Assembly: GCA_036346225.1 (NCBI GenBank)
Contig: JARFIW010001469.1
Location: forward strand, 11,936,001 to 12,000,000
Reading direction: 5' to 3'
Length of the DNA stretch: 64,000 nucleotides
Source: Platerodrilus igneus
Lineage: Eukaryota > Arthropoda > Insecta > Coleoptera > Lycidae
Shown here in pieces: positions 24,190 through 62,960 of the stretch. The notes beneath the pieces are model-generated. The model worked only from the letters and a program-made list of their open reading frames with translations. It had not been told where the DNA came from and searched no databases. Numbering within the stretch: the stretch's first letter is position 1; every line of letters starts with the position of its first letter. The position numbers and the translations under genes were made by a program.

Positions 24190-24593
24190 AATAATTAATA
24201 GCGCCGAACAATAAACAGATAACAATTAACAGTATGGTGATATTGAACCTAAAAGTAGGAAGTGCTGTAGAGGAAATGAATTTTGATTGTACCAGGGTTC
24301 ATGTTAGGGAGTATGTTAGTGATGGATCTAGTAAATAGATTAAAAATAAAGTCTTACGCCGAGAGCAGAACTTTTATTATTATGGGGATTATTGTGATAT
24401 GTGATGAAATGAACATCAATACATAGATTGATTACATAAGGTTGATTATATTAATTATGAGGCTGGATCCAATTAATTGTTCTGATGAAGTAAAGGAACA
24501 AATTGTCTTGGTGAAGTTATACATTAATTGTTGTAGTAAAGTATAGAAACAAATTATCTTGATAAAGTTGCAAAATAGAGAAGATATCGGTAT
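24190..24593. other. Short unassigned stretch
   Basis: AT-rich, no motif recognised. Ends at the AGAG target duplication of the following solo LTR. Confidence 0.5.
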
Positions 24594-24597
24594 AGAG

Positions 24598-26380
24598 TGT
24601 AACATTATTTTGTAATGTTAACGAATAAACAGATCAATTAATTAAAAATTCAGTAACTTGCATAAAGTATAGACAAAAATTCCCACAATAAATTATCATA
24701 TTTTAGTTAGGCTCCCTTGTAATAAAAGACCACATTTATACCGATAGCTTCAGGCTACTAAATTCCAGCGGCAGGTCATAATAATTTAAAGCTCTACCCT
24801 CGTAAACCAAGTACAATAAACCTCTTAAAGTTAGGTCGGTTACAGACTGACAAATCGGATAAAATTAAAATGTATAGTACCTTTTAGCGTAAAAAAAGGA
24901 AACCAATTTCAGTTTGAAAAGCTTAACCTTCTTAATACTTTTGTTGATTGACAGCGGTTATACAAAAACGAAACCTTTTATAAATAGCGGAAACTATTTC
25001 CAATTTGATTTGTTCAAATATTACAAGTAATTTTAAGTAGTCTGGAGATATCCATTGTATTTAAAATCCATTTCGGCTCAAGTACGTTAGCCGGTCTTTG
25101 TTAATGCCAGACTACGGCCGCCATAGGAAAATTCCACATTGCCATATTTAAGAAATTCGTAGAAAGAAAAATATAAATTAAACTCTTGGGAAATAATTGC
25201 TTCCGTGATTCTCATCTAAAAAGGGGTTGGATTTGGTTTCTGAAATCTTGTTTTATGGGAGGTTCTGTTCAGTCATTGGATAACAGAAAATGACGTACAT
25301 AATTATTAGAGTAGGAATTAGTCTATATATTTGAAGGCTTTAGCCAAAGACGGGGAGTTTTTCCAATGGGGCCGTCCGTGGTCAAGAAGTAGAGAGAAGC
25401 GTAGTTCGCGGGTAGCGTTTTCCGGCTCACAGATAGAATATTCCACTTCGTATCACGATACATCAAAATTGGAAAAAGGTGAGTACTCTTCCAGTTTCGC
25501 GAGGGTTATGCCCATATGTTCGCGGATTTATAGTGATGCAAGATAAATATTAAACAAAAGCTTGTAGGCGTGTGACGCACAAGTAAGTGATATTGTCAAA
25601 AAATTCTGCCGGGATCGTGTGCCAGTCAATTCTTAAAAAATTTATGAACAGAAGCAACAAGCGAGATTCTCTTCCCAAAATTAAGAACTGTTCTACGTTG
25701 GAAAACCAACCCTCAAACAATGGACAATTTTTAGTAAGTAAATTTTTATAGTTAAGTAGCATGACCAATTTTTAGTTAGTTTGTTTGTTAGGACGTTTTG
25801 GTCATAAACCGTAGGATTAATTTAGTGTATGATTTATAATATAAGTTTTCGTTCATATACAAGTGTTTGATAACTACTTATGTACTCAAAATTTTCATAA
25901 ATTCCATAGTCACCTATTCACTTAAATTTCTAAATCAATGAATGTAAGAGGTTCAAGTTTATTGCTCTGTGAATTAAATAGTTTTGTTTGCCGTTGATTA
26001 AGTCAATAGTCTTTTTTTAATTTTTTATCATGGAAGTTTATAAGTAGTAAAAAGTGAGGAATTGATTAAAAGAAACAATTGTCCTCTTTGGGATGACAAG
26101 TCTCCTAAGGTTTTGTACGAACATTTGGACATTCTCTACTTGTCTGGCGCCCTTGGCAATTGTCATTAAGCCACAATATTTTATGAAAGGTAAGTGCCAC
26201 ATCTTTGTAGTATATTATAAATTAATTAAACCCTTTTGTTCAAAATTTTAACCTCTATATGATCCACGACCTTCCGCTAGCTAGTGCCGGTGACCCCCCT
26301 TTAATTTTTGTTTTACAGGCCGCCCCCATGTTATAATTTGACTGGAAAAGATACACTTAGTAGCTTTTCCGCCTGTAACA
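24598..26380 (+). mobile_element. Solo LTR, about 1.78 kb, copy 1
   Basis: Begins TGTAACATTATTTTGTAATG and ends GCTTTTCCGCCTGTAACA, flanked by AGAG at 24594-24597 and 26381-26384. Two more copies (45857-47624, 60424-62200) share both ends. TG...CA termini and a 4-bp duplication fit Ty3/Gypsy-type LTRs, although this length is unusual. No gag or pol of the same family was identified in the window. Orientation is arbitrary. Confidence 0.75.
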
Positions 26381-28770: not shown

Positions 28771-28774
28771 ATAG

Positions 28775-29365
28775 TGAAGCAGGCTACTGCTACCGCGTTT
28801 CTTTAATTTAAAACAAGTAATAACCAGTCTTTATTACTCACTGTTCACAAGTCTAATTAACAGTATATGCCTTGTTTATAGATGTTTTCAGTCCACTTAA
28901 CAATAAAGCACTATTACACTAATGAATTTACAAGCACTAATATCTTCTTAAACTAACTTCTTTACCATAGGTCCATTAATAACACTAACACAACTATTTA
29001 TTTATTATACACTTTGTCTATTTATGTATACTACAAGCTGCAGGTACATTAAACACAGCATATAACATTTATGTATACACTTGAACTTACAAAAGCCAAC
29101 TACTATTACTTTACAACGATATAATTTATATTAGACATTCTAGTATAGACTGACCCTTGCATTTATTAGCGGCCTTATATATACTCTGAGTTAAAGATAT
29201 GACTCATCCTCTAGTAATTACGAGATCTTCCCGGTCCATTGAGAATAAACAGTGCTGGCGGCGTTTTGTGTGTTTGATTGCCAGAAGAATTCTCGAATCC
29301 TGAAGACAATGCAGAGCCTACAGCGCTTGTGTGTTTGATGGGTTGCCTAATAGAAGCTTGCAACA
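28775..29365 (-). repeat. 3' LTR of the Gypsy element
   Basis: 591 bp; minus strand starts TGTTGCAAGC and ends CCTGCTTCA. Close match to 35652-36245. The last about 50 codons of the macrodomain ORF lie inside it. Confidence 0.85.
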
Positions 29366-29905
29366 CTACCCCCTCTTTAAAACCGTTACGTCTCGTAACT
29401 GTAACTACATTTTGACGCCAATTCGATGAATGGTGTCGGTATCGGCAGCTATCTCCTCTGGTGCATCCACCGCGTCGTTGGAAATAACAGTCAACACTCT
29501 TTTCTTGGTCTTGGTAGGCAACCGGTTGATAACACACAAGGACCTGGACGTTGATTTCCTGGAAAACTACTTCTAGCATATTTCGGACTATCCTCCAATC
29601 TAAGCGATCCAGTTCACAGCCTAGCTTGGGCACTGCTAGTCTCGTTACTTCATTTTCCATCATCTGCGCCTTAAGACTTAGCAAAGCCTCCCATAAATGT
29701 CCATAACTAGATCTCTGCCATGAAGAATTTTTGGTGACCAGATAGTAAACATAACGATTTTTATCCTGAAGAACCAAAGCTTTTCCTACAGTTGGCTGCT
29801 GTTGTACTAATTCATCCACACATCCAAACTTTTTCTTGAAAACAACAGCTATTCCCCTTGACATTGATTGCCAAATCTTGAGCTACGCAATGTGCAAGGG
29901 AATAC
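29211..29905 (-). CDS. TARG1/OARD1-like macrodomain plus CCCH zinc finger, carried by the Gypsy element
   Basis: The 217-codon frame from 29864 begins MSRGIAVVFKKKFG, the macrodomain phosphate-loop region. An upstream strand/helix (SLAHCVAQDLAIN) is readable in another frame at about 29900-29865, so one indel separates them. The macrodomain runs to about residue 112. By comparison with human TARG1, which removes ADP-ribose from glutamate, both catalytic residues are present: Lys45 in YYLVTK and Asp86 in ELDRLDW. A CCCH zinc finger follows (C126-x7-C134-x5-C140-x3-H144). The final about 50 codons run through the PPT into the 3' LTR. It lies directly downstream of integrase, suggesting expression as a Pol extension or separate accessory protein. 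It may reverse ADP-ribosylation of host or element proteins and bind RNA; that role is inference. Confidence 0.75.
29366..29378 (-). promoter_or_regulatory. Polypurine tract
   Basis: Minus strand AAAGAGGGGGTAG immediately before the 3' LTR. The same tract precedes the middle LTR (36246-36258). Confidence 0.8.
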
Positions 29906-30109
29906 TCTTCTGGTGCTCTTGCTGTATTCAACAACAACGCCAAATCTTGCCTTAGCCGAACCACCATACGCCTCCATAAAGCTCTCAAAATCTACATTTG
30001 GCTCATGATTAATAACTTGTCGAACACGATTCTCATCATTCGAGCTTTCTTGGTTGTTGCCAGCGTAGGATGTTAAACAGTCAACAGTGTACCACTTTAG
30101 GTTTACCAC

Positions 30110-30967
30110 AGGGCGATCTTCTGATCCGGTACACTACATCATTAATCCTTTTCATCACTTCGTACGGCCTTCCCATTGTCTTCGTAATTTTGGCGACAAC
30201 CCACGTTTTCTTTGCGGATTATACAACCACACCAAATCTCCAGGTTGATAACCACCTTCTTGTGCTCTCGTGCCATATTGTGATTTCATTCGATCGCTTG
30301 CTGCCTGGATATTCTTTCGGACGTTTTCGTGAATGCTATTTGATCTTTCACGAAGCTTACTAACGTAATCTTCTCCTGCGATCTCTTCTCCAGGTTTAAA
30401 TCCAAACTGCAGATCACATGGTAGCCGCAATTCATGTCCTAGCATTACGCAAGCGGGCGAGTACCCTGTGCTGTCATGTACCGAAGATCGGTACCCCAGT
30501 AGGAACAAATGTAAATATTGGTCCCAGTCTCGTTGATGTTCAGAGACAACTTTGGCCAGGTACTTCCCTAACGTCCTGATCATTCTTTCAACCTTTCCAT
30601 CCGATTGGGGATGAAGTGGCGTGGTTCTAGTCTCCCTGATTCCAAGATGCTTGCAGACATTTTGAAACATTGCTGATTCGAAGTTCCGACCTTGATCGGA
30701 GTGTAATTCCAACGGAACTCCAAAGCGACAAAACAACTCCTTCACTAGTACATCTGCAACCGTATCGGCTTCTTGGTTAGGTATAGCATATGCCTCCGGC
30801 CATTTGGTAAAATAATCCATTGCAACCAAGATGTATTTATTTCCTTTCTCTGATTCAGGAAACGGACCAGCTATATCAATGGCTACCCTCTCAAAAGGAT
30901 TCCCCACGTTATACTGTCTCATTGGGGCTTTCCGTTTTGTGACCGGGTCATTTGCAGAGGCACACAA
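30110..30967 (-). pseudogene. Gypsy integrase catalytic core and C-terminus
   Basis: The 270-codon frame holds the DDE catalytic triad: Asp31 (AIDIAGPF), Asp91 (HSDQGRNFE) and Glu127 (SDGKVERM), with the correct 35-residue spacing between the last two. It is followed by the GYRSSVHDSTGYSP block and the GDLVWLYNPQRKRG chromodomain-like C-terminal fold. Frame breaks occur near 30155 and 30095, just where the tail (DVVYRIRRSPCGKPKVVH) leads into the macrodomain region. The enzyme inserts cDNA into chromosomes; catalytic residues are intact but the ORF is not. Confidence 0.85.
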
Positions 30968-31618: not shown

Positions 31619-32316
31619 TCTTACAATTTAAAAGTTACAGTTACAATCCCGCACGCGCGAGATTGCGTAACGCACCGGCAGATGGTAACCATTATCTTGG
31701 TTACAGATTTTGGCGCGCCCATCTGTCAATGACGTCACACAATAACCATATTTAATTGCGCAATTGCGGAATAAATATAAATGTTTGAAATGCAGTATAA
31801 ACAAATAAGGTACTTACATAAATAGGTCCAGCTTCCCACGAAGTACGCCAAGGATGGCGTCCCACAGGATAGCGTCCTTCCACCTTTTAGATAATTGACG
31901 GAGGGTACGCCCAGCGTCCTTCCAAAGCGCTCCGACTAGCTACGCGGCCATGGACATCCGGATCGCTCTAGGCTGCTTCAAATTGTCCTCTACCTATGTA
32001 GGGAGCGAATAAGGAAACAGGTATAAGGGCGACAACAAAGATAAACAAGGCAAGGATCTACATAAATGAAAGATACAGACACGATACGATACCTAACACG
32101 ACCACTCTTCTCGAAGTCCCAGGCAAAACAGTCACGTTACAGAGTCCCCCGGAAACTTCTCCCACTTTTCTCTTTCGCCACTCGCGTCGCGCGATCTGGC
32201 GCAAACGCACTCTGACGTGACGGAAATACACGCCAAGTCTTTTGAATTTGTGGCGCGAAATTCCCGCACATCAAGACTAAACTAAAAAATGTTTAGTGCC
32301 AATTTGGCACGTAACA
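31619..32316 (-). mobile_element. 698-bp solo LTR inserted in the Gypsy RNase H domain
   Basis: Flanked by AAGT at 31615-31618 and 32317-32320. Minus strand starts TGTTACGTGCC and ends TTGTAAGA (a near match to the expected CA end). Removing it with one AAGT restores reading continuity of the host RNase H. It is more GC-rich than its surroundings and belongs to a different family from the 591-bp and 1.78-kb LTRs. Confidence 0.75.
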
Positions 32317-32320
32317 AAGT

Positions 32321-33848
32321 GCTCTACGGATTTGACGACAGCCAACAGCTCCCTTCTTGTCACACAATAGTTCCTTTCTGGCCGCGACAAGACCTTGCTG
32401 AAATACCCAATAACTTTTTCTTGTCCGTCCTGCACTTGAGAAAGAACGCTTCCTATAGCTGTGTTACTGGCATCGGTATCCAACACAAATTTCTCCTCCA
32501 TCCGTGGATAACTCAAAATTGGTGCGGTAACTAGTAGCCGTTTCAGTTGTTCAAATGCACTGTGGCAGTCGTCATTCCAATCATATTCTTGTCTATCTTC
32601 GGTTAATTTCGTTACCGGTTTGGCAATGTTCGCAAACCCAAGTATAAAACGTCGGTAATATGTGCACAATCCTAGAAAACTGCGTAGTTGGTGTATATCT
32701 GCTGGTGTAGGCCACTCTTGTACCGTTTTTATTTTGTCAGGGTCAGCTCTTATTCCGGTCTCCAAAACGACATGTCCTAGGTATTTCACCTCTTTTCCAA
32801 ATATGTGACACTTCTTAAAGCTCAATGTAAGGTTTGCCCCCCGTAATCTTTGCAATATCTCCTCTAGGTTCTTAAGGTGCTCTTCAAAGCACCGGCCTAA
32901 CACTATCACATCGTCGAGGTACACCAGACAAGTCTTCCAAGACAGTCCACGCAGTATTGACTCCATCAATCGTTCAAAAGTAGCAGGAGCATTGCATAAT
33001 CCAAATGGCATGACCTTGAACTGCCATAATCCAGTTCCAATTGTAAACGCAGTCTTTTCTTTATCGTTTGGCTCCAAGCCTACCTGCCAGTATCCGCTTT
33101 TCAAGTCCAAGGTCGAAAACCATTTAGATCCGGATAGAGTATCCAAGGTGTCATCAATTCTGGGCAAAGGATAGCTGTCTTTCTTTGTCACATTGTTCAA
33201 CCTCCGATAGTCTACACAAAACCCTGTCGACCCATCCTTTTTCTTGAGAAGCACTACCGGGGATGCCCATGGACTTTTCGAGGGTTCAATCACTCCTTGT
33301 TCTTCCATGTCGGTAATAATTTGCTCGGCTTCCTTACGTTTTGCCAAAGGAAGCCGCCTGGGGTGTTGTCTTATCGGTTGCACATCTCCAGTATTGATCT
33401 TATGTCGCACAACATTCGTCCTTCCTTTCTCACTATCATCCACTGCAAACACACCTCGATTTCGTCCGACCAGTTCTTTTACCTTGCCCAGTTGGTCACC
33501 GTTTAATCTTTGACACGAAGGTATCAACATATCCAGCAATTTCTTTGAGCAACCGTCGGCTGGTTTATCTTTCGTGTCGTCCACACAATGTTTAATATGG
33601 CATACTGGAATGCAACTTCCTACAATCATGTCTTTCTTCAGGGCCACCGTATGCGGATTAATGTTCAGCACCCTTACTGGTATCATATTTCGAAACTTTA
33701 CCAGCGTTTTTCCAATCAGTAATCCCTCCTGACCCATTCCCGATTCAGCTGCTTCCATCATGCATACTTGTCCTTCCCGGAGCGTACCATCCGCGCGTCC
33801 CATTACTATCATTTCCGCCTTCTCGGGTTTTTTCATATCGCAAATCAT
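32321..33848 (-). pseudogene. Gypsy reverse transcriptase and N-terminal RNase H
   Basis: RT motifs in order: SPWASPVVLLKKKDGS (about residues 192-207), VDYRRLNNVT, STLDLKSGYWQ, FGLCNAPATFERLM, and the catalytic YLDD at residues 310-313. The RNase H domain starts with VLDTDASNTAIGSVLSQ near residue 455 and continues through the RRELLAVV box. The reading frame is then interrupted at 32316 by the solo LTR at 31619-32316; coding resumes beyond it at about 31614. RT catalytic residues are intact. Confidence 0.9.
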
Positions 33849-34229
33849 TCAAACTTGCATCGTCTGGTTACTCGTATCTTGAAATGGAATCTCATCATCA
33901 TCTATCCGAAGCACATTTTCTTTCATGTTTACATGACACCCATATTCTCTCATGAGATCCATTCCCAAGATCACTTCTTCTGTAATTTCAGCTACCAACA
34001 CTCGATGATTAATTAGTTTGTCCCCAATTGCCAACCTAACGGCAGTCTCTCCGTGCTTACAAATTTTCTCACCACTTGCCGTTCGGAGACAGACCGATAG
34101 AGGTAACACTTTTCCACGACCAACCAAATCTGGTCTCACAATAGTTCTTGTCGCTCCTGTATCCATAAGTAATCGGACAACCCTACCATTAATTCTACCA
34201 TCGATATAAATGCTGTCCAGACTTCCCAT
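33849..34229 (-). pseudogene. Gypsy aspartic protease domain
   Basis: A 126-codon stretch with the retropepsin signature LLMDTGATRTIV (catalytic Asp at residue 23) and the later hydrophobic-Gly box ILGMDLM. It reads directly into the RT ORF in the same frame, separated by one TGA at 33849-33851. That stop is either a mutation or a readthrough site; mutation is more likely given the other damage. Normally this enzyme cuts the Gag-Pol precursor. Confidence 0.8.
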
Positions 34230-34319: not shown

Positions 34320-35572
34320 TGCTCAACCGGTTGTTTTTTTGGTTGAGTACAGCGTATATGACCAACTTCACCGCAGTTCCAGCATCGCAGACCCCATCTC
34401 CGCGGTCGTTGTTTTTTCAGCTTTTCCGTTTTTTGCTTTTCAAATACACTGTTGATTATTTCTTCTATGCTGTTCTGCGATTGCTCAGGTTCTTCTAATG
34501 CAGACCTAAGTTTGTGACTTTCCTGTGTGACGTCTGCTTAGCTGCTTCAAATTCAAGCGCATGAGCCAGTGCATTATCTAACATTTTTGGCCGTGCTAGT
34601 ATTAGCGCTTGCTGTATTCCGCTGTCTTTAATGCCATCCACAAATGTTTGAACAGCCAGTTGTTCGAGGAAGCTATCTGGTGCCGTTAGGTATGCCAATC
34701 TAACTTATCTGGCGATGTCAGCTTCAAATTCTTGCAGGCTTTCACTTGTCTTTTGCGAGCGGTTCTTAACTTGTGCATGGTAAACCTGTTCAAGATGAAC
34801 GTCTCCATATCTCATCTCAAGCTTCGACGTTAAGAGGCCGTAATCATTCTGCTGGTGATCGGGAATCGTTTGTAAGATGCTAACAACTTCCCCCCCGTAA
34901 GGCTACTATTAGAGAGATAGCCTTCTCTTTGTTGCACCAATCGTTGGCTATTGCAGCAGTTTCAAATTGTTTCAAATATGTGGGCCAAGGTGTTTTACCA
35001 TCGAATGTGGGTGGTTTCACTCTAAATTTTGACGGTATTGACTCGCTTCCTTCCATGCTTCTTATTTCTGGAATGTTCTCATTTATAGCTTGGTTTGCTA
35101 TTTCAAGTGGCCGTGCTGTTAGTGAAATCACTTGTTCTTACAGCCTCATCATTTCTTCTTCCATTTTTACCAATTTACTGTCCAACTTTTGCTCAACTGT
35201 TTTTACCTGTTCAGTGACAACTTCTTTCAATGCAATGAAGCTTTCTATTAATCTTTGTTCTAACGTAGCCGTCTTTTCATTCAACTTTTCTTCCAATTTC
35301 ACAGCATTTTCACTTAGCTTTTCTTCTATTTCCTCAGCATTTTTACTAAACTTTTCTTCCATTTTCTTAGCATTTTCACTTAACCTTTCGGTAAGATTTG
35401 ATTCCAGTTCAACTGACCTCACTACGTTTTCATTTAGTGTCACTTCCAATTTAGCCGACCTTTCCTCTATTTTCTCAGCATTTTCGTTTAACTTTTCTTC
35501 TACACCAAAATCCTTAAGGAAATTCATTAAAGCTTCTGCGTCCATCTTATTTTGACTTCTTGTAACTGGCAT
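34320..35572 (-). pseudogene. Gypsy gag (broken)
   Basis: Starts MPVTRSQNKMD at 35572. A long coiled coil of ENAEKIEE-type repeats (35138-35550) is followed by the capsid-like block PPTFDGKTPWPTYLKQFETA (near 35020), then a DNALAHALEFE block (near 34570) and a zinc knuckle at about 34350-34400 (CWNCGEVGHIRC). The knuckle has only two residues between its His and final Cys instead of four, so it is probably damaged. At least three frame breaks occur (35130, 34880, 34490). The product would normally coat the genomic RNA in virus-like particles. Confidence 0.75.
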
Positions 35573-35632: not shown

Positions 35633-35650
35633 ACCCCGCACCTGACACCA
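35633..35650 (-). promoter_or_regulatory. Primer-binding site
   Basis: Minus strand TGGTGTCAGGTGCGGGGT one base after the LTR end. TGGTGTCAG is the usual start of a PBS complementary to tRNA-Leu in insect Gypsy elements; the following bases diverge. Confidence 0.6.
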
Positions 35651-35651
35651 G

Positions 35652-36245
35652 TGAAGCAGGCTACTGCTACCGCGTTTTTTTAATTTAAAACAAGTAATAA
35701 CCAAAGTCTTTATTACTCACTGTTCACAAGTCTAATTAACAGTATATGCCTAATTTCTAGATGTTTTCAGTCCACTTAACAACGAAGCACTATTACCTAA
35801 TGAATTTACAAGCACTAATATCTTCTTAAACTAACTTCTTTACCATAGGTCCATTAATAACACTAACACAACTATTTATTTATTATACACTTTGTCTATT
35901 TATGTATACTACAAGCTGCAGGTACATTAGACACAGCATATAACATTTATGTATACACTTGAACTTCCAAAAGTTCAACTACTATTACTTTACAACGATA
36001 TAATTTATATTAGACATTCTAGTATAGACTGATCCTTGCATTTATTAGCGGCCTTATATATACTCTGAGTTAAAGATATGACTCATCCTCTAGTAATTAC
36101 GAGAAGCTTCCCGGTCCATTGATAATAAACAGTGCTGGCGGCGTTTTGTGTGTTTGATTGCTAGAAGAATTCTCGAATCCTGAAGACTATGCAGAGCATA
36201 CAGCGCTTGTGTGTTTGATGGGTTGCCTAAAAGAAGCTTGCAACA
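35652..36245 (-). repeat. Middle LTR of the Gypsy dimer (5' LTR of the main unit)
   Basis: 594 bp, same ends as the 28775-29365 copy. Followed on the minus strand by the primer-binding site and gag, and preceded by a PPT and the macrodomain end of the first unit. Confidence 0.85.
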
Positions 36246-36715
36246 CTACCCCCTCTTTAAAACCGTTACGTCTCGTAACTGTAACTACATTTTGACGCCA
36301 ATTCGATGAATGATGTCGGTATCGGCAGCTATCTCCTCTGGTGCATCCACCACGTCGTTGGAAATAACAGTCAACACTCTTTTCTTGGTCTTGGTAGGCA
36401 ACCGGTTGATAACAACACACAAGGACCTGGATGTTGATTTCCTGGAAAACTACTTCTAGCATATTTCGGACTATCCTCCAATTTAAGCGATCCAGTTCAC
36501 AGCCTAGCTTGGGCACCGCTAGTCTCGTTACTTCATTTTCCATCATCTGCGCCTTAAGATTTAGCAAAGCCTCCCATAAATGTCCATAACTAGATCTCTG
36601 CAATGAAGAATTTTTGGTGACCAGATAGTAAACATAACGATTTTTATCCTGAAGAACCAAAGCTTTTCCTACAGTTGGCTGCTGTTGTACTAATTCATCC
36701 ACACATCCACATCGG
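36187..36715 (-). pseudogene. Second copy of the macrodomain/CCCH gene (5' truncated)
   Basis: The 171-codon frame 36702-36187 is about 95 percent identical to the 29211-29864 protein, keeping YYLVTK, ELDRLNW and the complete CCCH finger. Its first part is replaced by an LTR fragment at the 36715/36716 junction, so it lacks the macrodomain phosphate-binding start. It is the remnant of the first unit of the dimer. Most differences are substitutions rather than stops. Confidence 0.75.
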
Positions 36716-36819
36716 CGTTTTGTGTGTTTGATTGCTAGAAGAATTCTCGAATCCTGAAGACTATGCAGAGCCTACAGCGCTTGTGTGTTTGATGAGTTGC
36801 CTAATAGTAGCTAGCAACA
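36716..36819 (-). repeat. Truncated outer LTR (first about 104 bp)
   Basis: Matches the start of the other LTRs and then joins abruptly at 36715/36716 to the middle of the macrodomain gene, marking an internal deletion of the first unit. Confidence 0.8.
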
Positions 36820-44578: not shown

Positions 44579-47500
44579 ATGATGCTTGATGATCGCTTAG
44601 ATCTAAATCAAGTTTTGGGAATTGCTGAAGCGTTAGCAAATCCTATACAAGTGGTAGATATTGGGCCCCGAAATAGACGTGTTATTCCTCGAAATGAATT
44701 GTTTTTTGAACAGACCATTCCGAGGTACGTTGATTTGCAATTTAAGGAGTATTTTCGGATGACATGAGGAACTTTCGAAGTATGTAAAGTTAATAGTATT
44801 GTTGTAGCCAAAATTATGTGTTAAAATATAGGTATTACTTCAGAATATTGCACATGCGAGACCGAATATTGCCAGAAATACTGTAGTGCCCTTAGAAAAG
44901 AAAGTTCTATTTATGACATGGATTCTGTCTAAACCGGAAAGTTTTTTGGCTTGTGGCGATAGGTTTGGTTTGGCCGGTAGTACTGCTTATTGTATATTTG
45001 AGGAAATATTGGCAGTTTTTGTGGATATTTTGCCGAACCATATTGTTTGACCAATTAACTACCTACCATCTGTTAACGTATGTATACAGGTAATTGTATT
45101 AAACGGGATACATAGGGGTTATGTATACTTTTATAAAAACACCTCAATATATTGGGATGTTGTAATTGTACTAATAAAATAGAGTGCTTTGAAAAGTGCC
45201 CCAATCATTAACTGTGGATTTAATTTATTACACTCCAGAGTTTATTTTTATACTTTATCATGCTGCATTAATTTAATCATCATGTACAACACAGGTAAAA
45301 GAAAGGAAAATAATGTGGTATCAGAATGGCAATAGGCTAAAAGATATCAGAGATTTATTTCGTACTAAATATAATAAACTTTGACTGAAGTGTAATTAAT
45401 TTGACAGTTAATGATTTGGGCATTTATTTTTTCAAAGCATTCTATTTTATTAGTACAATTACAACAAATTATCATTACCAATGCATTGAAGTATTTCGTA
45501 TAAAAGTTTACATATCCCATATGTATACTGTTAAGAAAATTCCCTGTATATCGAAACTGAAAAATTTTATCCCAAGAAAACGTTTACCTGTAGGTTTTTG
45601 AGGAACGTTCAAGAGGCTTTCCAGGGGTAATTGGAGCAACAGATGGGTGTCACATCAAAATAAGACAACCACCGCAAAATGCCATAGATTATTACAATAG
45701 GAATAAATATCATTCGATCATCGAGAAATATATAAAGCAGTTGTGAAGATAATTTCACAGTATTTTTTTAGAAATATCAGATCATACTATGAAGTTTATT
45801 GATATTTTTGTGGGCTCTCCTGGTCGAATGCATGATGCAAGTCTTTCGGAATAGTTTGTAACATTATTTTGTAATGTTAACGAATAAACAAATTAATTAA
45901 TTAAAAATTCAGTAACTGGCATAACTTATAGACAAAAATTCCACAATAAATTACCTCATTTTAGTTAGGCTCCTTTATAATAAAAGACCAGCTTTACAAA
46001 TAGCTTTAGGCTACTAAACTATTAGAATTCCAGCGGCAGGTCATAATTTAAAACTCTACCCTTCCTGGTAAATCAAATACAATAAACCTCTTAAAGTTTA
46101 GGTCGGTTACAGATTGACGAAAGTGATAAAATTAAAATGTAATAGTACCTTTTGGCGTAATAAAGGAAAGCAATTTTTAGTTTAAAAAGCTTAACCTTCT
46201 TAATACTTTCGTTGATTGACAGCGGGCTATAGAAAACGAAACATTATAAATAGCGAAAACTATTTCCAATTTGATTTGTTCAAAGTGTACGAGTAATTTT
46301 AAGTAGTCTGGAGACATCCATTGTTTTAAAATCCATTTCGGCTCAAGTAGGTTAGCCGGTCTTTGTTAATAGCAGACTACTGTCGCCATTGGTATGGTCC
46401 ACATTTCAACAATTAAGAAATTCGTAGAAGATACAATATATGTAAACCCTTGGGAAGATAATTGCTTTCGTGACCCTCATCTAAAAAGTGGTTGGATTTG
46501 GTTTCTGAAATCTTGGTTTGTGGGAGGTTCTGTTCAATAATTGGATAACAGAAAATGACGTACATAATTATTAGGGTAGGAATTAGTCTATATAGCTTAA
46601 AGCTTTAGCCAAAAGACGGAGAGTTCTTCCAATGGGGCCGTCCGTGGTCAAGAAGTAGAAAGAAACGTAGTTCGCGGGTAGCGTTCTCCGGCATCACAGA
46701 TAGAATATTTCACTTCGTATCACGATATTAAAAATTGGAAAGGAGCGATAACTCTTCCAGTTTCGCGAGGGTTATACCTATATGTTCGCGGATTTATAGT
46801 GATACAAGGTAAATAATGAAAAGCTTGTAGGCGTGTGACGCACAAGTAAGTGATATTATCAAGATTCTGCCGGGTTTGTGTGCCAGTCAATTCTTTAAAC
46901 ATTTCAAACAGAAGCAACAAGCGAGATTCTCTTCCCCAATTTAAGAACTGTTCTACGTTGGAAAACAAACCCTCAAACAATGGACAATTTTTAGTAAGTA
47001 AGTTTTTATAGTTAAGTAGCATGACCAATTTTTAGTTAGTTTGTTTGTTAGGACGTTTTGGCCATAAACCGTAGGATTAATTTAGTGTACGATTTATAAT
47101 ATAGGTTTTCTTTCATATACAAGTGTTTGATAACTACTTATGTACTCAAAATTTTCATAAATTCCATAGTCACCTATACACTTAAATTTCTAACTTAAAA
47201 TCAATGAATGTAAGAGGTTCACGTTTCTTGCTCTGTGAATTAAATAGTTTTGTTTGCCGTTGATTAAGTCAATAGTTTTTCTTATTTTTTTTATAAGTAG
47301 TAAAAAGTGAGGAATTGATTAAAAGAAACAATTGTCCTCCTTGGGATGACAAGTCTCTCAAGGTTTTGTACGAACATTTGGACATTCTCGACTTGTGTGA
47401 CGCCCTTGGCAATTGTCATTAAGCCACTATATTTTATAAAAGGTAAGTGCCAAATCTTTGTAGTATATTATAAATTAATTTAACCCTCTTTTTCAAAATT

Positions 47501-47690
47501 TTAACCCTCTATATGATTCACGACCTTCCGCTAGCTAGTGCCGGTGACCCCCCTTTAATTTTTGTTTTACAGGCCACCCCCATTTTATAATTTTGCATAC
47601 GTAGTAGCTTTTCCGCCTGTGACAAGTTCAATATATAATAAAATTATTAATCAAGATATTGTTTTAATACCTTTTAATTTACAGAGAAAT
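44579..47690 (+). pseudogene. Second Harbinger transposase with introns, split by a solo LTR
   Basis: Exon 1 (44579 to about 44778) ends IPRYVDLQFKEYFRMT, then a TGA (44765-44767) and GTFE. A short GT...AG intron (about 44779-44831) and exon 2 (about 44832-45078) follow, the latter with VVPLEKKVLFMTWILSKPES and CGDRFGLAGSTAYCIFEEI and a second TGA at 45048-45050. A further GT...AG intron (about 45079-45597) leads to FPGVIGATDGCHIKIRQPP, the first catalytic Asp block, and GSPGRMHDA. The frame then meets a solo LTR (45857-47624) and continues after it (47625-47690) with the VFRNSSIYNK-type block before the copy is lost. HARBI1-like. Two TGA stops plus the LTR make it inactive, but splice sites are still visible. 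Confidence 0.8.
45857..47624 (+). mobile_element. Solo LTR, about 1.77 kb, copy 2
   Basis: Same ends as copy 1 (TGTAACATT...CGCCTGTGACA, one base changed at the end), with a perfect AGTT duplication at 45853-45856 and 47625-47628. Inserted in the coding region of the second Harbinger. Confidence 0.8.
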
Positions 47691-59995: not shown

Positions 59996-62960
59996 TGGGG
60001 GCACATGTGCGAAAATAGTGTTCAGGTTTCAACTGAGGTTAGTTGTCAAAATATTTCACTGCTGCGACAAAATAATCGAAAGCATACATGTGCGAAAATA
60101 GTGTTAAAGCAAAAATAGTGTTGAGGTTTCAACTTAAGTTAGTAGTTGCAATGTTCTACCGCTAAGACAAAATAATCGAAAGTGCACATGTTCGAAAATA
60201 GTGTTGAGGTAAAAGTAGTGTTAAGATTTCAACTTAGGTTAGTTGTCGAAATATTTTACTACTAAGACAACATTAGCGATTGGGCTTACGTGCACAAATA
60301 TTGCAGAGGCGAAAAGAGTGTTAAGATTTCAACATAGTAGTCGAAATGCTTTACTACTAAAACAAAATAATCTAAAGGTTACATATGTGAAAATAGGATT
60401 GAGGCAAAAATAGTGTTAAAGTTTGTAACATTATTTTGAAATGTTAACGTTTTAACAGATTAATTAATTAAATTTCATTAATTTGTATTACTTATAGGCA
60501 GAGTTCCATGATAAATTATCGTTATATTTTAGTAAGCATCCCTTATAATAAAGACCTCAAGTATAGAAATAGCTTTACCCTTAAATATTACAAATTGCAG
60601 CGGCTGTCATAATAATTGAATGGTCCTACTTTGCAAACCTAATACAATACCCTTTTAAAACTTATGTCGGTTATAGATTGACGAATCTGATAAATTTAAA
60701 TAGAATATTACCTTTCATCGTAAACAAAGAAAAGCAATTTTCACTTGTAAAACTTAATTTTCTTAATATTTCAGTGATTGACAAGGGTTTGTAGAAAACA
60801 AAACACTACAAATAGCCAAACTATTTTCTAATTTGATTTGTTCAAAGATTGCAAGTAATTTTAAGTAGTCTGGAGACAACCATTGTATTGAAATTCATTT
60901 CGGCTTAGGTTCGGCTATCCGGTCTTTTGTCAATGGCAGACATGGTCAACAATTTTAGTACTTAAAATTCCAAAAATGTACAACATATTTAAACCGTTAG
61001 AAAAATAATTGCTATCCGCGGTACTCATTTTGAAAAGGGCTGAAATTTTGTTTTTGGTAGGTTCTGTTAATAGTCATTGGATAACAGGTATATTACGTAA
61101 ATAATGGTGAAGGAAGGATTAATTTATAGCTTAAGACTTTAGTCAAAAGAAAGAGGTTCTCATGGGTTTTCCGTTGTCAAAAGGTAGAAAGAAACGTAGC
61201 CACAGAAGTTTACTGGTAGCGTTTTTCGCCGTAGCAGATATGATATCGCACTTAGTATCACTTTTGTAAAAGTGGAAACGGCTAATTAGCTCATTCAGTT
61301 CTCGAGGGTTTATGCCCGTGTGTTCGCGGATTTATAAGTGATATTAAAGTATGTAATAAAAAGCTTGTGTGCGTGTGGCGCACAAGTTAAGTTATCAACA
61401 AGATCCTGCCGGGTACGTGTGCCATTGAATTATTTGAGTAGTTGCGAAGAACAAGAGCAACAAACGAGATTCTCTCCCCCAATTTAAGAGCTGTTTTGGG
61501 TTGGAAGGCAAGCCATCAAACAATTGACGATTTTTAGTAAGTAAGTTTTTATAGTTAAGCTAGCATGACGAATTTATAGGTAATTTATTTGTTAGGACGT
61601 TTTGGCCATAAACCGTAGGATTAATTTAGTGTAAAAATTATAAAATAAGTTTTCTTCTATATAAAGTATTTGGGAATTACTTATGTACGTAAAATTATCA
61701 AAATTCCATATCAAGCATTCAATCAAATTTCTAAATTAAAATCCATGAATTTCCTAATGTAAGAGGTTCACGTTTATTGTTCTGTTGATTAAATACTTTT
61801 TGTTTGCCGTTGATTAGGTCAATAGTTTTTTTTATTATTTTGATCATGAAAGTTGCATAAATAGTTAAAAAGATAAGAATTGATTAAAAGAATTGTCCTC
61901 CTTGGGATGACAAGTCTCTCAAGGTTTTGCATGAACATTTGGACATTCTCGACTTGTCTGGCGCCCTTGGTAATTGTTTTAACCCACAATATTTATGAAA
62001 GGTAAGTGCCAAATTTTTTTGGTTATATAATATATATATTAATTTAGCCCTTTCTGCAAAATTTTAACCCTCTATACGATTCACGACCTTCCGCTAGCTA
62101 GTGCCGGTAAACCCCCTTTAATTTTTGTTTTACAGGCCGCCCCATTTTTTAATTTTAATTATAATAATATACTTACTTAGTAGCTTTTCCGCCTGTAACA
62201 GGTTTATACGTGGGTTAGTTGTCGAAATATTCTACTACTAAGACAACATAATCAATTAGGGTCATGTGCGAAAATGGTGCTGAGACGAGAATAGTGTTGA
62301 CGTTTTGACTTAGGTTAGTAGTCGAAAGCGTTTTACTGCTAAGACAACATAAACATTAGGCTCACGTGCTCAAATATTGCTGAGACGAAAATAGTGTTAA
62401 GATTTTAACTTAGGTTAGTTGTTGAAATGTTTTACTTCTAAGACAAATTAATCTAAAGGTTACATGTGTAAAAATAGGATTGGGGCAAAAATAGTGTTAA
62501 GATTTACACAGGTTAGTTATCAAAATATTCTACTACTAAGATAACTTAACCAATTGGGCTCATATGCGAAAATGGTGCCGAAGTAAGGATAATGTTGACG
62601 TTTTAATTTGTTAGTAGTCGAAGCATTTTACTGCTAAGACAAATTAATCGAGAGGGTACATGTGCGAAAATAGTGTTAAAGTGAAAATAGAGTTCAAGTT
62701 TCAACTTAGGTTAGCAGTTGAAATGTTTTACTACTAAGATATAGTAATCGATTGGGTACATGTGCGAAAATAGTGTTGAGGAAAAATTAGTGTTGAAGTT
62801 TCAAATTACGTTATTAACCGAAATGTTCTACTACTAAGACAAAATAATCGAAAAGGGTACATGTGCGAAAATAATGTTGAGGCCAAACTAGTGTTGAGGT
62901 TTCAACTTAGGTTAGTAGTCGAATTGTTCCACCACCAAGACCAGATAATCTAAAATTTGT
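59996..62960 (+). repeat. About 97-bp satellite array, interrupted by a solo LTR
   Basis: Units contain ACATGTGCGAAAATAGTG, then GTTTCAACTTAGGTTAGT and TTTTACTACTAAGACA, with spacing of 96-101 bp (for example 60090, 60187, 60288, 60384; then 62268 to 62858). The LTR at 60424-62200 splits it. Confidence 0.85.
60424..62200 (+). mobile_element. Solo LTR, about 1.78 kb, copy 3
   Basis: Ends TGTAACATTATTTT and CCGCCTGTAACA, flanked by AGTT (60420-60423) and GGTT (62201-62204), one mismatch. Inserted in satellite DNA. More diverged than copies 1 and 2. Confidence 0.75.

Follow-up and report, generated by a model that had tools for sequence, protein, structure and literature searches.

The minus strand of a 64,000-nucleotide stretch of the genome of the beetle Platerodrilus igneus (assembly GCA_036346225.1, contig JARFIW010001469.1, positions 11,936,001 to 12,000,000; below, the window) carries a Ty3/Gypsy retrotransposon with a TARG1-type macrodomain behind its integrase. 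Integrase, linker, macrodomain and a CCCH zinc finger make up one unit at the C-terminus of pol, and the window holds a decayed copy, its frame lost more than once, of a multicopy family; we regard this as practically certain. The domain is placed at the end of pol because the frames of intact copies run continuously from integrase to macrodomain and because single database proteins join the two. The original prediction, made from the window sequence alone, had instead described a stand-alone open reading frame (ORF) between integrase and long terminal repeat (LTR); the continuous frames contradict a separate accessory gene of this kind.

The same genome yielded at least 150 scored matches out of 16,681 first-look candidates, more than chance would give. 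At the 30 loci that match the window best, an LTR follows the macrodomain in all 30 and an integrase precedes it in 28, one of the other two being the window's own upstream remnant; the expectation that hits would always lie between integrase and 3′ LTR is thus borne out, at these loci, completely on the LTR side and nearly so on the other. Eighty-nine copies were compared, a set that is not random: 29 of these 30 loci, ranked by similarity to the window (L024, the window remnant, was left out), plus 60 chosen from 94 ranked by similarity to P0074. Twenty are open, with neither stop nor indel, from integrase core to finger, and 68 are open over macrodomain and finger; a looser count, over ruler columns only and with insertions ignored, gives 25, and the stricter 20 were used for pN/pS.

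The same arrangement is found in predicted database proteins, whose gene models are unchecked and, where shortened, cannot show the absence of a domain. Single proteins join rve, the integrase C-terminal domain, the macrodomain and the finger; P0125-P0127 add RNase H, and P0128 adds both reverse transcriptase (RT) and RNase H. In a Diabrotica protein, residues 13-283 match Ty3 integrase and residues 329-465 match TARG1. Pfam scans of five fused proteins (P0023, P0025, P0037, P0042 and P0050; E<=0.01) found no chromodomain. Protein ends of the form FKEG(V/A).. or LRRGQCN.. read like a polypurine tract (PPT) and the start of an LTR: 37 of the 73 lineage proteins show one of these motifs, with others ending earlier, and we infer that the motifs represent the PPT also in relatives outside the window genome.

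In the window, the ORF at issue (29211-29864, minus strand) matches human TARG1/C6orf130 chains in the PDB with E=1.2e-25 and contains a finger, C126-x7-C134-x5-C140-x3-H144. Its description as a TARG1-type macrodomain with a CCCH finger is therefore right in kind but not in extent: because the ATG is internal and the first part of the domain (..EYSLAHCVAQDLA) sits in another frame, the ORF is not the whole macrodomain. This copy is frameshifted between integrase and macrodomain; ORF 29849-30109 reads the linker in one frame and then continues in the wrong one. The predicted surroundings were found, with an integrase upstream (Pfam rve) and the PPT AAAGAGGGGGTAG and a TG..CA LTR downstream, except that the ORF passes through the PPT, its final ~50 codons being U3. 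Among the 30 loci, 17 stop ~18 codons into U3 and the others earlier or later.

Lys84 and Asp125 are named in the literature as the catalytic pair of TARG1 (PMC9411070), and ORF K45 and D86 fall on them in a structure alignment of an intact copy (model residues 105-245 on TARG1 residues 12-152, entry numbering), which upholds the catalytic Lys and Asp originally proposed. The structure model of this copy has the TARG1 fold as predicted; its matches cover mainly model residues 104-249. The window copy reads GCELD, and 114 of 124 compared sequences have G before L/I-D. As to the finger, CPSF4-type CCCH chains (PDB) match ORF residues 120-145; the CCCH spacing is present, and the zf-CCCH score exceeds the cut-off of 20.5 bits in the relatives P0050 (29.4) and P0042 (21.3), with the window just under it (19.7).

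The features of the window element are:

36713..36819, minus strand: partial 5′ LTR start (TGTTGCTAGC...), the left end of the element remaining; a 110-nt repeat of 29259-29368 (95%), TG at 36819
36246..36709, minus strand: truncated second copy (macrodomain 3′ part, CCCH finger and PPT), lying before the complete 5′ LTR; belongs to a 97% repeat of 28773-29826, with ORF 36187-36702
35652..36245, minus strand: 5′ LTR, TG...CA (repeat comparison, border letters)
35634..35650, minus strand: candidate primer binding site TGGTGTCAGGTGCGGGG, directly after the LTR
35138..35572, minus strand: putative gag start, the first ORF, assigned by position only; gag is broken further on
33849..34229, minus strand: aspartic protease (Pfam gag-asp_proteas, 1.5e-11)
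32277..33848, minus strand: reverse transcriptase and RNase H (Pfam RVT_1, 8.7e-35; RT_RNaseH_2, 7.7e-31)
30155..30967, minus strand: integrase core (Pfam rve, 4.8e-17), the frame interrupted afterwards
30084..30167, minus strand: integrase C-terminal module, which we take to be of the GPY/F type, in another frame in this copy (translation; Integrase_p58_C and SH3_Tf2-1 in intact relatives)
29865..30000, minus strand: linker and N-terminal part of the macrodomain, in two frames here, continuous in copy L040
29532..29864, minus strand: macrodomain, TARG1 type (PDB match; fold of an intact copy), with the K45 codon at 29730-29732 and the D86 codon at 29607-29609
29433..29489, minus strand: CCCH finger, C-x7-C-x5-C-x3-H (Pfam zf-CCCH_3, 4e-5; zf-CCCH, 7.9e-4; both below curated cut-offs)
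29366..29378, minus strand: polypurine tract AAAGAGGGGGTAG, inside the reading frame (sequence)
28775..29365, minus strand: 3′ LTR, TG...CA (repeat comparison, border letters); the last ORF codons (29211-29365) are U3

Protease, RT, RNase H and rve all score above their Pfam cut-offs in the window, and the Ty3/Gypsy order protease - RT - RNase H - integrase is kept both there and in relatives. LTRs with TG..CA ends (96.5% identical to each other), a PPT and a candidate primer binding site position are all present; a tRNA search for the candidate site gave 0 matches. Another macrodomain-finger-PPT block precedes the 5′ LTR, 97% identical over the whole repeat, and is itself preceded by ~107 LTR-start bases. 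This remnant is probably either what an internal deletion left of two copies in tandem or a leftover of recombination. The 1.06-kb repeat also suggested a macrodomain inside a very long LTR (Nef- or Sag-like), an arrangement ruled out by the PPT and TG..CA borders in other copies; these borders give an LTR of ~590 bp.

Macrodomain and finger appear to have been kept by purifying selection while the family was active and spreading, since variants shared among copies are depleted in amino-acid changes and pN/pS is near that of the integrase. Among the 89 copies, the ratio of amino-acid-changing to silent variants (N/S) for singletons, which are mostly mutations after insertion, is 0.75 in the integrase core, 0.77 in the macrodomain and 2.07 in the finger; for variants common to at least three copies it is 0.15, 0.26 and 0.14. 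The linker has 0.86 for singletons and 0.45 for shared variants (p=0.29; the copies are related rather than independent, so p-values are guides), the stretch from finger to PPT 1.17 and 1.44, and the U3 end 0.70 and 0.64. In the 20 continuous copies pN/pS is 0.22 for the integrase core, 0.25 for the macrodomain, 0.11 for the finger and 1.31 after it, with wide intervals for the short segments. The selection check put forward with the original prediction thus comes out in favour of a maintained macrodomain.

The catalytic pair is retained in most copies and relatives. All 89 copies have the Lys and 87 of them the Asp; the three finger Cys are present in 89, 88 and 88 rows and the His in 84 of 88. 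Among the lineage representatives (85% identity cut), both catalytic residues are intact in 34 of 42, so that most of the lineage, though not all, looks enzymatic by its residues. As for the loop motif, 27 of the 42 representatives have MSRGI, and 27 of 49 others have MG(A/K)GI. We do not claim that the pair was lost twice independently, one clade of pair-less sequences not being rejected (approximately unbiased (AU) test, p 0.45). One gene model from Holotrichia oblita (P0069) has the lineage macrodomain, with N for the catalytic Asp, together with a Psq-type helix-turn-helix (PF05225, 1.5e-5); it may be a host fusion or a gene-model artefact.

The profile search gave 353 hits, of which 120 were listed, and a second listing of relatives (including P0125-P0128) covered 120 of 1513; counts refer to the listed proteins. 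Lineage names among the matches listed include Molorchus, Aromia, Exocentrus, Gonioctena, Leptinotarsa, Diabrotica, Callosobruchus, Acanthoscelides, Brassicogethes, Harmonia, Pyrocoelia, Aquatica and Holotrichia, which we take to be beetles, and Macrosteles and Nilaparvata, presumably hemipterans (bugs). In a tree of 122 macrodomains, a branch with 99% support delimits a set of 73 that includes 50 of the 51 rows bearing an integrase (the exception is P0097); a smaller, careful tree separates 35 chosen lineage rows from 32 with 100/99 support. The set of 73 was taken from the 122-row tree and reused in later analyses, so its unity there is no independent evidence. For twelve of the 73, the sequence itself contains no integrase and no finger. 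In the tree of integrases, 16 rows with a macrodomain fall inside one set of 20 (99%), and 42 sister rows have no macrodomain; the four macrodomain-less rows within the set have tails of 17, 22 and 43 residues (possibly truncation) and of 4 in the basal P0133. A single gain is the simplest reading, not a proven one. Of the 73, 45 show the finger, 20 are too short to reach it, and 8 lack it although their tail is long enough, three of these tails (P0008, P0041, P0205) looking damaged. One sublineage lacks the CCCH finger.

A host origin of the macrodomain is likely, because in mean identity the integrase-less beetle protein P0066 comes closest, though narrowly. The captured host hydrolase of the original prediction is to that extent plausible, with the donor not settled by the tree; as for OARD1 of the same genome, the matches found resembled element copies, and the host gene was not told apart. 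One protein of 237 aa (P0097) has an integrase C-terminal domain followed by a macrodomain at its end, no finger, and groups nearer to vertebrate TARG1. We do not take it as evidence of a second, independent capture, a single clade being compatible with the AU tests (p 0.94; p 0.30). Relatives in viral contigs were also considered: a scan with the window protein gave 0 loci, and one with the alignment gave 17, none with a tblastn match to the window RT or integrase.

A few proteins have other arrangements. In P0033, an Aromia moschata gene model, gag (PF03732) is joined straight to the macrodomain-CCCH end, probably in a deleted copy or through a gene-model artefact. In P0096 (385 aa) a TARG1-type macrodomain, closest to P0100/P0104, precedes the aspartic protease of a retroelement; position and element both differ from those of the family described here. 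P0145 (Cyamophila willieti) has ~205 residues behind the integrase (329-533) with no Pfam match at E<=0.001. In P0226 (952 aa), another Gypsy pol, a deoxynucleoside kinase domain (residues 821-951; PF01712, 2.1e-23) stands behind the integrase in the same place as the macrodomain, a hint that host enzymes can become attached to the 3′ end of pol on more than one occasion.

What might such a domain do? Human TARG1 removes ADP-ribose from Glu/Asp and from PARP3-modified DNA ends, an activity lost in D125A (PMC5725667). Our preferred reading, held tentatively and at somewhat less than even likelihood, is that the macrodomain is an enzyme brought into the particle and the nucleus by the integrase, removing host ADP-ribose so that integration is not blocked. 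The integrase would carry the attached domain into both; in the pre-integration complex it would strip ADP-ribose, placed by host transferases, from Glu/Asp of the integrase and partner proteins, leaving integration unblocked. Phosphorylated ends of new cDNA or RNA could be alternative substrates, and the CCCH finger may aid nucleic-acid binding. Since the enzyme would travel with the integrase, it would most likely act on the integration complex or on the cDNA ends.

Several points weigh against this. The eraser activity is a prediction from sequence and fold. The pair is not intact in 8 of the 42 lineage representatives, two of them from Diabrotica, as against none of the 49 non-lineage sequences; among the eight, R replaces K in four and Asp is missing in seven (in P0036 possibly through an alignment gap). 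In the 73-row set, K ranks 23rd among the conserved window macrodomain columns, and D is outside the first 25. To judge from the loop motif, substrate preference may differ. The pN/pS interval after the finger (17 codons) takes in values below 1. Protease cleavage of the linker, if it occurs, would free the domain. A bolder version is possible but doubtful: an integrase with its own ADP-ribose eraser would clear cDNA ends or the integration complex, an ancient DNA-damage response being the integration barrier overcome, and the pair-less sublineages would have turned the domain into a non-enzymatic tether.

An alternative, close to the original prediction and in our view rather unlikely, is a counter-defence enzyme acting on ADP-ribosylation-based silencing or on antiviral modification of element RNA, gag or chromatin, with the finger on element RNA. 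The enzyme type and the selection data would serve it too, and it has precedents: SIRT6 represses mammalian LINE-1 through mono-ADP-ribosylation of KAP1 (PMC4695847), and human TARG1, like viral macrodomains, takes ADP-ribose off RNA ends (PMC6582358). The CPSF4-type match of the finger also fits. However, the domain is an extension of integrase/pol rather than an accessory ORF, which implies pol stoichiometry and a tie to the late complex, and so favours the integration complex over a free antagonist; a finger-less sublineage exists, and no insect PARP restricting Gypsy elements turned up among the open-licence papers listed.

Another alternative, which we consider unlikely, is that the macrodomain reads ADP-ribose rather than erasing it: as a targeting module it would bind ADP-ribosylated chromatin or a partner protein and steer integration. 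It sits where chromodomains do, behind the integrase C-terminal domain, and the representatives without an intact pair keep the macrodomain, in most cases together with the finger. In Ty3 integrase a vestigial chromodomain likewise kept a targeting role, independent of histones (PMC8632968), which would fit these members. But the retention of the pair in the other representatives and in nearly all copies exceeds what a pure reader needs, and the insertion preference found is for a 4-bp sequence, which requires no chromatin reader. The 3′ LTR flanks (99 loci, L018-L117, with LTR ends located in 92 and 81 distinct flanks) fit NTAN sites, mostly ATAT, GTAT and ATAC, with RTAY at 58 of 81, T in second place in all and A in third place in 96%. 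As a candidate short target-site duplication the window copy has CTAG/CTAT, with one mismatch; other copies were read on the 3′ side only. Finally, the frameshift of the window copy would suit a captured host fragment without function for the element, but this is highly improbable, being contradicted by the depletion of amino-acid changes among shared variants, by a pN/pS near the integrase's and by retention in relatives whose macrodomains average 50% identity.

Macrodomains have been reported in retroelements before: fish have Epsilon-like endogenous retroviruses with macro domain ORFs (Basta et al., 2009, cited in PMC4977317); those are vertebrate and additional ORFs, and the citing passage mentions neither the macrodomain type nor an integrase fusion. 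No macrodomain fused to an integrase, or in Ty3/Gypsy, turned up among the open-licence PubMed Central papers listed (subscription papers, preprints and repeat databases were outside this scope). Among Gypsy elements with an eraser, the closest parallel is an orchid lineage that gained and kept an AlkB m6A demethylase; there the host is a plant and the enzyme an additional ORF, an RNA demethylase active in vitro, whereas here the mark is ADP-ribose, the activity predicted and the domain fused to the integrase (PMC9289625). Chromoviruses and Ty3 also carry an extra module behind the integrase C-terminal domain (PMC8632968), in chromoviruses a chromodomain, which the five scanned fused proteins lack; the module here is of an ADP-ribose enzyme type. 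Alphavirus nsP3 and coronavirus nsp3 likewise place a macro fold in a genetic parasite, with a possible role against ADP-ribosylation. Human TARG1/OARD1/C6orf130 (PDB 4j5r, 4j5s) differs in its loop, MGAGIA as against MSRGIA here, and in lacking the setting at the pol C-terminus with a CCCH finger.

If the domain is active, ADP-ribosylation would be one of the points where hosts hold back the integration of retrotransposons, countered in one transposon lineage by the evolution of an eraser. With such a natural fusion of integrase and hydrolase, one could test directly which ADP-ribose marks hit the integration complex; the fusion also adds to the few known LTR retroelements that gained and kept an enzyme removing covalent marks. 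Elsewhere in the window, 24587-26339, 45846-47593 and 60420-62200 are three related repeats of ~1.8 kb, 77-89% identical.
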